NCBI GenBank assembly: GCA_913045135.1 | Contig: CAJWQD010000022.1 | Coordinates: 1-34,954 of the forward strand | Direction of reading: 5' to 3' | Source: an uncultured Flammeovirgaceae bacterium | GTDB taxonomy: Bacteria; Bacteroidota; Bacteroidia; Cytophagales; Cyclobacteriaceae | DNA: 34,954 nt | Part shown: positions 14,111 through 18,362 of the stretch, one piece after another | Numbering within the stretch: position 1 is the stretch's first letter | Layout of the letters: the number at the start of each line of letters is the position of its first letter | Notes under the pieces: model-generated | The model's input: only the letters and a program-made list of their open reading frames with translations | Database searches by the model: none | Told to the model about the DNA's origin: nothing | Translations under genes and position numbers: made by a program

Positions 14111-14899
14111 TCAAATATGGTTTTCAAAACTATTTAAGGGAACAAGAAATGAATAGTTTAATTTTTCCTTTACCAGATTATTACTAATGATTTTATTTGA
14201 ACTACTCTCTTTATTTATTTGAGGCGGAGGGTGACCTATTAATTGGGAAGCACGTGAATAAAAATCTTTTCTTATGGGATGTTCATCGGCGCATGCATTA
14301 AAAACTTCTTCCCAGACTTGATGGGTGATAATTTTCTCAATAATACCCATACAGTCATAAAGATGAATTAGGTTCACTGGATTGTCTGGATTAGTTAATA
14401 ATTTATTTGTAAACCATCTTCCTGGATGCCTTCGTTGATCGAAGAGACCCGCCAGTCTAATTATTGTACTTTGATTCGATGCATTTTGAATTATTTGTTC
14501 AATCATCAAAAGCGAATGCCCCATGTCTAGGGCACCTTTTTCATTTATAGGTTCCGCACTGGGTAAGTACACGTCTGTGGAACTTGTATAAATTACTTTA
14601 ATTGTAGTTGGAAGCTGTTTGATTAAATTGTCAAAGGGATTTATTTGTTTTAAAGGAATTGTTATTATGAGTATATCGGCATTTAAAAAGTCACTAAATC
14701 GAGGTTCCGGTTCCGTAAGTTTGATAAGGTAAGGAATGATCCCTGCACTTTTAATAACCGCCATTTTTTGTGGAGAGGTGGTGGATCCTTTGACTTGATT
14801 ACCTAGTTGGACTAATCGTGTGGCTAAGGGTAAGCCTAACCAACCGCAACCAAGGATGCTGATGCAATAATTGGGATTATTTTTTTTAATTAAAGTCAA
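14111..14899 (-). CDS. NAD(P)-binding Rossmann protein (YeeZ-like extended SDR)
   Basis: 262 residues if translation begins at the TTG at 14899, seven bases after the asparaginase stop codon and preceded by AAAGGAA. An ATG at 14968 gives 285 residues but overlaps the upstream gene by 62 bases and adds 23 residues that do not look conserved. The nucleotide motif GCGWLG is at 17-22 of the shorter form, followed by TSSTDVY and a C-terminal domain like those of YeeZ-type NAD-dependent epimerases. The usual Y-x-x-x-K pair is not evident, so catalysis is uncertain. Probably co-transcribed with the asparaginase-domain gene. Confidence 0.75.
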   Translation of the reverse strand: MTLIKKNNPNYCISILGCGWLGLPLATRLVQLGNQVKGSTTSPQKMAVIKSAGIIPYLIKLTEPEPRFSDFLNADILIITIPLKQINPFDNLIKQLPTTIKVIYTSSTDVYLPSAEPINEKGALDMGHSLLMIEQIIQNASNQSTIIRLAGLFDQRRHPGRWFTNKLLTNPDNPVNLIHLYDCMGIIEKIITHQVWEEVFNACADEHPIRKDFYSRASQLIGHPPPQINKESSSNKIISNNLVKEKLNYSFLVPLNSFENHI

Positions 14900-14906
14900 T
14901 TCCTTT

Positions 14907-15401
14907 TTAATAAAAACAGTCTGTTTTTTTATCTCTCTTGGCTGAATTAGCTGTCTGAATAAGTCCATTCATTGCGATATAGATGCCTTTACTAAGAATG
15001 TTTGCTGCTCCAATTGCGGTTCCAATGTTTAAAGCAGCATCGCTATTAGTAAATCTTTCGGGTCGTAGGGCACCGGTGAGTATAACTAGCTTTTCATTTA
15101 AATTTTTCTCTAAAAACTTACCCGTCTTAATTAAAGTGTCTGTGCCATGGGTGATGATAAAAATGGTTGATGGTTGTTTTTGAATTAATGCTAACAAATG
15201 ATTTCTATCTGAGCTATCAATTTCTAAACTGTCGTTTTTGAAAGCCGTGATGATTTCATATGTAAAGGTGGGATTTATCTTTTCAAGAATCCTGTGAATG
15301 GCAGGGTCACCTATTTCAAAAGCCCATCCGTTTCTTGTTTTCGGATAATCTTTGTCGATGGTGCCACCAGTTTGAATGAAAGTTATTTTTAAAGCGTTCA
15401 A
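14907..15401 (-). CDS. Single-domain asparaginase-like protein
   Basis: 164 residues corresponding only to the N-terminal half of L-asparaginase. The catalytic signature is complete: TGGTI with T14, Ser58 in DSLEID, and T84-H85-G86-T87-D88-T89. The C-terminal domain that completes the active site between subunits in normal enzymes of about 330 residues is absent. A stand-alone family of about 160 residues with this exact layout, ending shortly after MNG, is known in Bacteroidota and other bacteria, so this is unlikely to be a truncation. Whether such proteins hydrolyse asparagine is unknown to me. Confidence 0.8.
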   Translation of the reverse strand: MNALKITFIQTGGTIDKDYPKTRNGWAFEIGDPAIHRILEKINPTFTYEIITAFKNDSLEIDSSDRNHLLALIQKQPSTIFIITHGTDTLIKTGKFLEKNLNEKLVILTGALRPERFTNSDAALNIGTAIGAANILSKGIYIAMNGLIQTANSAKRDKKTDCFY

Positions 15402-16608: not shown

Positions 16609-17721
16609 ATGGAAAGTTTTATTGTATCGGCTCGGAAGTACAGACCCTTGGGGTTTAGTGAGGTAGTAGGGCAAGGCCATATTATTACTACATTAAAGAA
16701 TGCTATTGAGCAAAATCAATTGGCACAAGCATTGTTATTTTGCGGGCCTAGAGGGGTTGGGAAAACAACATGTGCTAGAATTTTATCCCGAATGATTAAT
16801 GGATTTAAAGCTCAAAATGGGGATGTAAATACTGCCAATTTAAATATCTATGAATTAGATGCTGCATCTAATAATTCAGTTGAAGATATTCGTAATCTCA
16901 TTGATCAGGTTCGCTATCCACCCCAGGAAGGGAAATATAAAGTTTATATTATTGATGAGGTGCACATGTTATCCAACCAAGCGTTCAATGCCTTTTTAAA
17001 AACACTTGAAGAACCACCTTCATATGCGATTTTCATCTTAGCCACTACAGAAAAATATAAAGTTATACCAACCATCTTGTCAAGATGTCAGATTTATGAT
17101 TTCAATAGAATTGAAATCGAAGATATTGTAGGCCAATTAAGAAAGATAGCAAAAGAAGAAGAAATTAGTTTCGAAGATGATGCCTTACACCTAATTGCAC
17201 AGAAGTCAGATGGGGCTTTGCGAGATGCGCTGTCTATGTTTGATTTGATTGTCACCTTTTCTTCCACTAAAAGAATCACTTATCAAAATACGATTACCAA
17301 TCTGCATATTCTTGATCACGATTATTATTTTAAGCTTTTGGATCTATTTTTAGAGCAAAATATATCTCCCACTTTGATGTTGTTTGATGAAATACTAAAA
17401 AAAGGATTTGATCCTCATAATTTTCTGATTGGTTTGGCACAACACTTTAGAAATTTATTGGTTTGTCAAAATCCAGTAACTTTAGTTTTGTTAGAAGTCT
17501 CGGAGAATGTTAAAAATAAATTTAAAGATCAAGCTAAAAGGTCGTCTGCTTCATTTTTGCTTTCGGGGTTAAGTATGATTAATCAATTTGATCAGGGTTA
17601 TAAACAGAGTAAAAATCAAAGGCTTCACATTGAGCTTTGCTTAATGAAACTATCCCAACTTGATCGAGTTTTCATCTTGTCACCACCTAAAGAAGATGTA
17701 AAAAAAAAAGTCTTAACTTAG
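16609..17721 (+). CDS. dnaX: DNA polymerase III gamma (clamp-loader ATPase), zero-frame product of dnaX
   Basis: 370 residues covering domains I-III. Walker A GPRGVGKT is at 46-53, Walker B DEVH at 116-119 and the sensor 1 segment LSRCQ follows. It loads the sliding clamp at the replication fork. The zinc module that sits between Walker A and ELDAASNN in many DnaX proteins is replaced by a short loop without cysteines (about 65-78). The frame ends at TAG 17719-17721, four codons after a run of ten A, just where domain III ends. A shorter gamma-like product would result, as in E. coli and Thermus. The long form continues in the -1 frame. Confidence 0.92.
   Translation: MESFIVSARKYRPLGFSEVVGQGHIITTLKNAIEQNQLAQALLFCGPRGVGKTTCARILSRMINGFKAQNGDVNTANLNIYELDAASNNSVEDIRNLIDQVRYPPQEGKYKVYIIDEVHMLSNQAFNAFLKTLEEPPSYAIFILATTEKYKVIPTILSRCQIYDFNRIEIEDIVGQLRKIAKEEEISFEDDALHLIAQKSDGALRDALSMFDLIVTFSSTKRITYQNTITNLHILDHDYYFKLLDLFLEQNISPTLMLFDEILKKGFDPHNFLIGLAQHFRNLLVCQNPVTLVLLEVSENVKNKFKDQAKRSSASFLLSGLSMINQFDQGYKQSKNQRLHIELCLMKLSQLDRVFILSPPKEDVKKKVLT
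17700..17710 (+). promoter_or_regulatory. Slippery A-run in dnaX (candidate frameshift or transcription-slippage site)
   Basis: Ten A residues (17700-17709) followed by G. In the zero frame the codons are GTA AAA AAA AAA GTC TTA ACT TAG. Moving back one base, or adding one A in the mRNA, opens the frame that reads to 18362. I see no Shine-Dalgarno-like stimulator just upstream and no strong stem within about 40 bases downstream, which favours RNA polymerase slippage, as in Thermus dnaX, over the stimulated ribosomal type of E. coli. A homopolymer length error remains possible. Confidence 0.7.
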
Positions 17722-18362
17722 GAGATCAATCGGCGCCTTTTCAAAAAACATCGTCAAAAGATATTGAGGATGACAAAAAAGAAAGGCCAGAAAGTCAATT
17801 GGTGGTTAAACAAGCCTCAAGGGAAACCCTGAAATTAAGCACTGAGAGTCCATCTATTAGTCAAAAAGATACCTCAGAGAGTGCTCTAAAAGCAAATCCT
17901 GACATTGTAACCCCGACACATACAGAAACTCCTTCGATTTTTAAGAAAAAAAAAGATCAGATGCCAAAAGGGGTAGAGACGAAAGTATTGAAAAATGAAG
18001 CATTTACAGAAGATCAACTTCAAGATGCTTGGAAGCATTTTATTGAATTACGTAAAAAGAAAGTGGTGAGTGAAATGGAACAGCTTATCCTGACACGTCA
18101 AATGACTAAAAAAGGAATGAATGCTCTTGTAATGTTAAATAGCCCTTTAGAGATTGCAATATTGGATCGAATTGAGGTTGATTTAGTTAATTTTTTAAGA
18201 GAAGCCCTATCCAATGATAAGTTAGTTGTTCAAAAAGAAATTAGAGAGGACTCTAAAAAAGAGAGAATTTTTACCAGTAAGGATAAATATGATTACATGT
18301 TGAAAGAGCAGCCTCTACTTCAAAAATTAAAAGATAAATTGGGACTAGATTTCGAGTATTAG
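17709..18362 (+). CDS. dnaX: Tau-specific C-terminal part of DnaX (-1 frame)
   Basis: From the slippery run this frame is open without a stop for 217 codons. It begins KSLNLGDQS, runs through a polar Lys/Ser/Glu-rich linker and ends in a folded segment typical of Bacteroidota tau: an AWKHF motif, a central part with LREALSN, and the end LLQKLKDKLGLDFEY. Joined to the gamma part it gives a 584-residue tau of normal length. Tau binds the polymerase alpha subunit and helicase. Treating it as a separate gene from the TTG at 17799 would leave a protein with no start of its own and no independent function. Its stop overlaps that of the convergent transglycosylase gene. Confidence 0.8.
   Translation, partial: SLNLGDQSAPFQKTSSKDIEDDKKERPESQLVVKQASRETLKLSTESPSISQKDTSESALKANPDIVTPTHTETPSIFKKKKDQMPKGVETKVLKNEAFTEDQLQDAWKHFIELRKKKVVSEMEQLILTRQMTKKGMNALVMLNSPLEIAILDRIEVDLVNFLREALSNDKLVVQKEIREDSKKERIFTSKDKYDYMLKEQPLLQKLKDKLGLDFEY

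Follow-up and report, generated by a model that had tools for sequence, protein, structure and literature searches.

A conserved poly-A run in Bacteroidota dnaX and its probable role in making gamma and tau by RNA polymerase slippage

The dnaX gene of an uncultured Flammeovirgaceae bacterium is divided between two reading frames at a run of ten A's, and this single locus probably gives rise to both gamma and tau through slippage of RNA polymerase at the run. The gene was studied in a stretch of 34,954 nucleotides (GenBank assembly GCA_913045135.1, contig CAJWQD010000022.1, positions 1 to 34,954), hereafter the window. Runs of this kind are found in most dnaX genes of the Bacteroidota sampled here. 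Two signatures, namely stops in the third reading frame and a hairpin abutting the run on its upstream side, favor, as far as sequence comparison can tell, RNA polymerase slippage over ribosomal frameshifting. We also lean, with less confidence, toward a broader reading, in which the gamma:tau ratio throughout the class and in part of the phylum would be set by RNA polymerase at a cassette of hairpin, A10 and two stops, the frame encoded in the DNA being secondary and drifting between zero, -1 and, rarely, +1.

Results

Organization of dnaX in the window

The gene starts with an ATG, and its zero frame ends GTA AAA AAA AAA GTC TTA ACT TAG (Table 1). This ORF matches TIGR02397 (dnaX_nterm), PF13177, PF22608 and, at residues 235-364, PF12169 (domain III). 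From the last A of the run, the -1 frame is open for 217 residues, which together with the 367 residues upstream make 584. The tail matched no Pfam family in the profile search; it aligns with positions 427-613, the last third, of NF011531 (gamma/tau, 614 positions), with an E value of 1.3e-20. The zero-frame piece scores 611 bits and the tail 74 bits against this model, each alone being below its curated cut-off of 685 bits. Thus, the preliminary description of this DNA was correct in placing the zero-frame stop just after domain III and in tracing the -1 frame to a tau C-terminus with 584 residues in total. No second dnaX copy was found in the source MAG, which is 81.7% complete. A second run, A9 at 17946-17954, lies within the tau tail; it is not conserved, since the congeners L003, L004 and L008 lack a nine-A run at this place.

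Table 1. Coordinates of the dnaX features in the window
Feature	Coordinates	Strand	Basis
dnaX zero-frame ORF (gamma, 370 aa): AAA+ clamp-loader domains I-III and stop	16609..17721	+	TIGR02397, PF12169
Weak RNA hairpin adjoining the run	17673..17698	+	CATCTT 17673-17678 pairs with AAGATG 17693-17698
A10 run, predicted shift site	17700..17709	+	241 of 276 distinct genes from relatives have at least nine A's at this site
TAA in the +1 frame, which -1 ribosomal frameshifting does not enter	17714..17716	+	Offset 4 nt
TAG, zero-frame stop of gamma	17719..17721	+	Sequence
tau-specific tail, -1 frame, 217 aa and stop; last A of the run is re-read	17709..18362	+	NF011531 427-613; dN/dS

The split is shared by congeners

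Nine congeners were searched, seven of which gave a dnaX match and two none. When the matched genes were aligned at this site, a check that the preliminary description had proposed, all seven were found to carry A9, A10 or A11 at the same codon region, together with the same -1 split. This makes an assembly error very unlikely, and that candidate was rejected. The run is likewise common in the family of the window (f1), for which 37 rows are available: A10 is present in 28 of them, A11 in two and A9 in one. The tau tail is, to judge from its dN/dS of 0.13-0.32 against six of the seven congeners, under purifying selection. The value against the seventh, L004, is 0.75 over 74 codons. The alignment is limited to these by another break in the L004 frame, which falls in the tau tail about 300 bases beyond the run and after which the remainder is open in another frame.

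It could be argued that the window holds an ordinary single-frame dnaX affected by a homopolymer error in sequencing or assembly, or by a true inactivating mutation, since homopolymers are prone to errors and the source is a MAG of 97 contigs. With the same split in all matched congeners, the run in most of family f1, selection acting on the tail and a single dnaX found in the MAG, we regard this as scarcely credible.

One member of the window's family, L026, has no long run in the region that follows domain III. It has instead an A7 phased as A_AAA_AAG, with a zero-frame stop directly after it and GGAGG about nine bases upstream, which looks like a switch to ribosomal frameshifting of the E. 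coli type.

Spread of the run across Bacteroidota

The dnaX of the window matches records of named Bacteroidota. Our sample comprised 56 dnaX genes from 59 relatives (G008, G009 and G017 had no dnaX match and were left out of the counts), 144 further genes from a class sample of 149 genomes, three of which gave no match, and 80 named loci among the matches listed. Removal of duplicates (L091 and three named loci) left 276 distinct genes. From other classes of the phylum, where two of 138 genomes were without a match, 40 matches were taken so as to cover families.

A run of at least nine A's just past domain III is present in 241 of the 276 distinct genes, including the named loci among the matches listed. 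In 234 of these 241 the run lies between 3 codons before and 30 codons after the point where the aligned domain III ends; in the other seven it lies further on. Ten is the prevailing length (185 of 276 genes), followed by nine (32) and eleven (21), with twelve in two genes and thirteen in one; a run of eight was seen once and of seven in six genes, while 28 genes have six A's or fewer. As background, 239,973 bases of coding sequence upstream of the site in the same genes contain a single run of at least nine A's, and 116,810 downstream bases contain nine such runs.

The run is present in 174 of 199 distinct relatives and class members, in 27 of the 40 chosen dnaX genes of other classes, in 70 of the 80 named loci among the matches listed and, by family code, in at least one member of 69 of 82 families. 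Because it occurs in all of these sets, the run must be old, and the lineage-specific gain suggested in the preliminary description does not stand. Among the matches listed, ten run-less named loci have a recorded order, which is Bacteroidales in nine; five of the run-less genes in the named set (matches listed) are Bacteroidales loci that bear the family name Bacteroidaceae or Prevotellaceae.

It should be noted that A10 is not unusual in itself for this genome. The genome search listed 90 overlapping matches of A10 or longer; of 17 distinct places examined, seven lie on the coding strand within other ORFs, with at least 20 codons on each side (L058, L069, L070, L078, L081, L082 and L086). 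Such a run alone therefore need not be programmed. A frameshift considered for the asparaginase gene of the window (14907-15401, minus strand) was rejected, the ORF matching PF00710 almost to its end; it overlaps the next ORF (14111-14968, also minus strand), which we read as an ordinary overlap.

The frame of tau changes while the run is retained

Tau can be assigned to a frame in 239 of the run-bearing genes: it is encoded in the zero frame in 145, in the -1 frame in 89 and in the +1 frame in five. The view that most Bacteroidota dnaX genes are single-frame is thus right, but most of these single-frame genes still carry the run. Genes without a run gave 34 zero-frame calls among 35, two of those not resolvable. 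Two genes, L106 and L218, run off their contigs and were left out of the frame counts.

On a FastTree phylogeny of the N-terminal domains, the tau frame changes at least 40 times, compared with a mean of 77 and a minimum of 64 for shuffled labels. The frame states cluster by clade, yet they have changed repeatedly; therefore, the frame is inherited but has been altered many times with the run retained. A strictly frame-neutral trait is ruled out by this clustering and by the rarity of the +1 arrangement (5 of 239), which means that the frame is not fully free. The scarcity of +1 fits slippage biased toward insertion, and a share of -1 ribosomal shifting would fit it too. Slippage in Thermus is described as adding mostly one A and less often two (PMC5009743), and the order zero > -1 > +1 fits a process of this kind, as it would some -1 shifting by ribosomes.

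Stops flank the run in both other frames

The first signature concerns the third frame, i.e., the frame that -1 frameshifting never enters. Of 169 run-bearing genes of the class set, 145 have a stop in this frame no more than 20 nt from the run, against 71 expected from codon shuffling of the same linkers. With one gene per family, the count is 58 of 66 against 28 expected. In 163 of 172 genes, both non-tau frames reach a stop within 30 nt, as opposed to 31% at control positions, and the window has a stop near the run in each of its non-tau frames (Table 1). Variation of mRNA length in both directions would cause selection for stops on both sides, and the third-frame stops therefore favor slippage.

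A hairpin abuts the run on its upstream side

The second signature is a hairpin that adjoins the run. For each gene, we took the best hairpin in the 30 bases before the run with its 3' end 0-3 nt from the run. When one gene was taken from each of 102 groups, among which coded and named families may overlap, the mean energy was -4.4 kcal/mol against -2.5 kcal/mol for dinucleotide shuffles (z -1.16 per gene, p 5.8e-10). The same test was near zero at seven other distances.

Chimeras joining halves from different genes, in which position-specific composition is kept and pairing is broken, served as a further control. In the first such test, z was -9 to -10 at the run and -0.3 to -0.8 at 9 nt, with a small effect remaining 60 nt away (z about -2.5). 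Three random draws from 69 coded families gave z of -8.4 to -10.5 at the run, with mean energies of -4.2 to -4.9 kcal/mol against -2.3 to -2.5 kcal/mol for chimeras, and z between -1.1 and +0.5 when the test window was moved by 6 or 12 nt. The stem sequences themselves differ between families, and the hairpins are stronger in A10 genes than in A9 genes (-5.2 vs -3.0).

The hairpin of the window is weak: the stem CATCTT/AAGATG has 6 bp, a 14-nt loop, one unpaired base before the run and an energy of -3.2 kcal/mol. In the congeners, energies range from 0 (L007, which has no hairpin) to -4.3 kcal/mol. The remark in the preliminary description that there is no clear stimulator stem needs amending, as a weak stem does adjoin the run and the putative stimulator seen at the level of the class is upstream of it.

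On the downstream side, a hairpin starting 4-8 nt past the run, the position of a frameshift stimulator, is not enriched (z -0.9, 68 families), and a downstream pseudoknot or stem was rejected as the general stimulator on this ground. In the window, the 60-nt stretch gave z -1.1. Downstream folding in general is slightly stronger (mean z -0.51) than in one control (-0.15), but values 180 nt further on are equal. Shine-Dalgarno-like matches just upstream of the run are present in 36 of 241 carriers (15%) and in 3.8% of controls; none is evident in AAAGAAGATGT before the run of the window.

Discussion

A model of slippage at the run

The evidence presented above supports the earlier suggestion that one gene makes both gamma and tau and that tau is the shifted product in this genome, and the third-frame stops and upstream hairpins add weight to its choice of slippage as the likelier mechanism. 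Under slippage, gamma would come from transcripts of the window gene that keep ten A's, lose one or gain two, since these would meet a stop 4-9 nt beyond the run. In transcripts that gain one A or lose two, the tail would be in frame and the product would be the 584-residue tau. A nascent-RNA hairpin adjoining the run would probably aid the slipping of the polymerase; this hairpin is strong in many relatives but weak in the window. Hairpin and run together are laid out like an intrinsic terminator whose U tract is replaced by an A tract, and the suggested action of the hairpin follows by analogy from the Roseiflexus case described below. If most outcomes are gamma and a minority are tau at any encoded run length, the frame of the DNA could drift for that reason, with the run, the two stops and the hairpin being kept.

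Programmed -1 ribosomal frameshifting on A_AAA_AAA within the run would likewise make tau, or gamma where tau is in the zero frame. Any run of at least nine A's contains the phased heptamer, the tau frames observed are almost exclusively zero and -1 (234 of 239), the excess of Shine-Dalgarno-like matches would suit a ribosomal mechanism, and L026 appears to be an instance of one. It is, however, difficult to reconcile with several observations. Since the phased heptamer needs only seven A's, the near absence of runs of seven or eight (7 of 276) counts for slippage. Stops are enriched in the very frame that a -1 shift does not enter, the conserved hairpin is upstream of the run and adjoins it while a downstream one is not enriched, and the five +1 arrangements are beyond the reach of a -1 shift. 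Moreover, the zero frame of the window reads AAA AAA AAA GTC and has no A_AAA_AAG, because the G that follows the run is the first base of a new codon. Ribosomal frameshifting as the general explanation is, in our opinion, unlikely.

Alternatively, the run may do nothing except encode a lysine-rich linker, with gamma being incidental or derived by proteolysis. Lysine-rich linkers are common, and proteolysis of tau is reported to yield gamma in Caulobacter (PMC5009743). Split genes, however, cannot make tau without a change of frame, and AAA codons alone leave the two-sided stops, the abutting hairpin and the length peak at ten unexplained. We consider this highly improbable, more so than ribosomal frameshifting.

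Relation to known systems

The window gene belongs to a dnaX type that has already been published. Antonov et al. 2013 (PMC3711429) describe a two-ORF dnaX cluster of 17 genes from 12 genera, nine of the 17 with ten A's, and favor transcriptional realignment. As in that type, gamma in the window is the zero frame ending at the poly-A run, followed by a -1 transition to the tau C-terminus. The transition is conserved across genera here as well: of the 239 run carriers that could be resolved, 89 have the -1 arrangement. The passages of PMC3711429 that deal with this cluster do not describe single-frame genes bearing the same run, third-frame stops or an abutting upstream hairpin. The corresponding account in PMC5009743 repeats the slippage proposal for two-ORF dnaX genes and names ribosomal shifting for at least one. 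A literature search, mostly of openly available papers, did not find the class-wide spread with a drifting frame, the third-frame stops or the abutting hairpin.

The dnaX of Thermus thermophilus is described as slipping at A9 to give two products, with stops nearby in both other frames (PMC5009743, PMC1088944). Analogously, the window has at least nine A's near the end of the part shared by both products and stops in both non-tau frames. Tau is templated in Thermus, whereas in the window gamma is templated and the run is ten; tau is templated in 145 of the 239 relatives' genes. By this analogy, the window gene would work like that of Thermus but differ from it in arrangement.

For the hairpin, the closest parallel is a Roseiflexus IS transposase, for which PMC5009743 describes stem-loop-mediated slippage with a hairpin immediately 5' of T5C5 and a one-base deletion. 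The RNA hairpins reported here are likewise immediately 5' of the putative slippage motif, clearly so across the class and weakly in the window. The Bacteroidota motif differs from that of the IS in being an A10 in a replisome gene, and dependence on the hairpin is presumed.

In E. coli, as summarized in PMC5009743 and PMC3711429, the same gene gives the same two products by a -1 ribosomal frameshift at A_AAA_AAG, with an upstream Shine-Dalgarno element and a downstream stem, gamma being the shifted product. In the window, by contrast, tau is the shifted one, and the E. coli heptamer does not occur in the zero frame.

Implications

If slippage is the mechanism, one of the largest bacterial groups would make two core subunits of its replisome through an error-prone step of RNA polymerase, kept despite drift of the DNA frame. 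It would also account for the splitting or truncation of dnaX by automatic annotation in these genomes. Furthermore, if the cassette operates as proposed, annotated frameshifts or single frames of dnaX would say little about its products. The differing hairpins and run lengths would offer a natural series for measuring the rules of slippage. Finally, the proposal would reveal the lineages that have lost the trait, which are mostly Bacteroidales among the run-less named loci of recorded order in the matches listed, and this would bear on the purpose of gamma.
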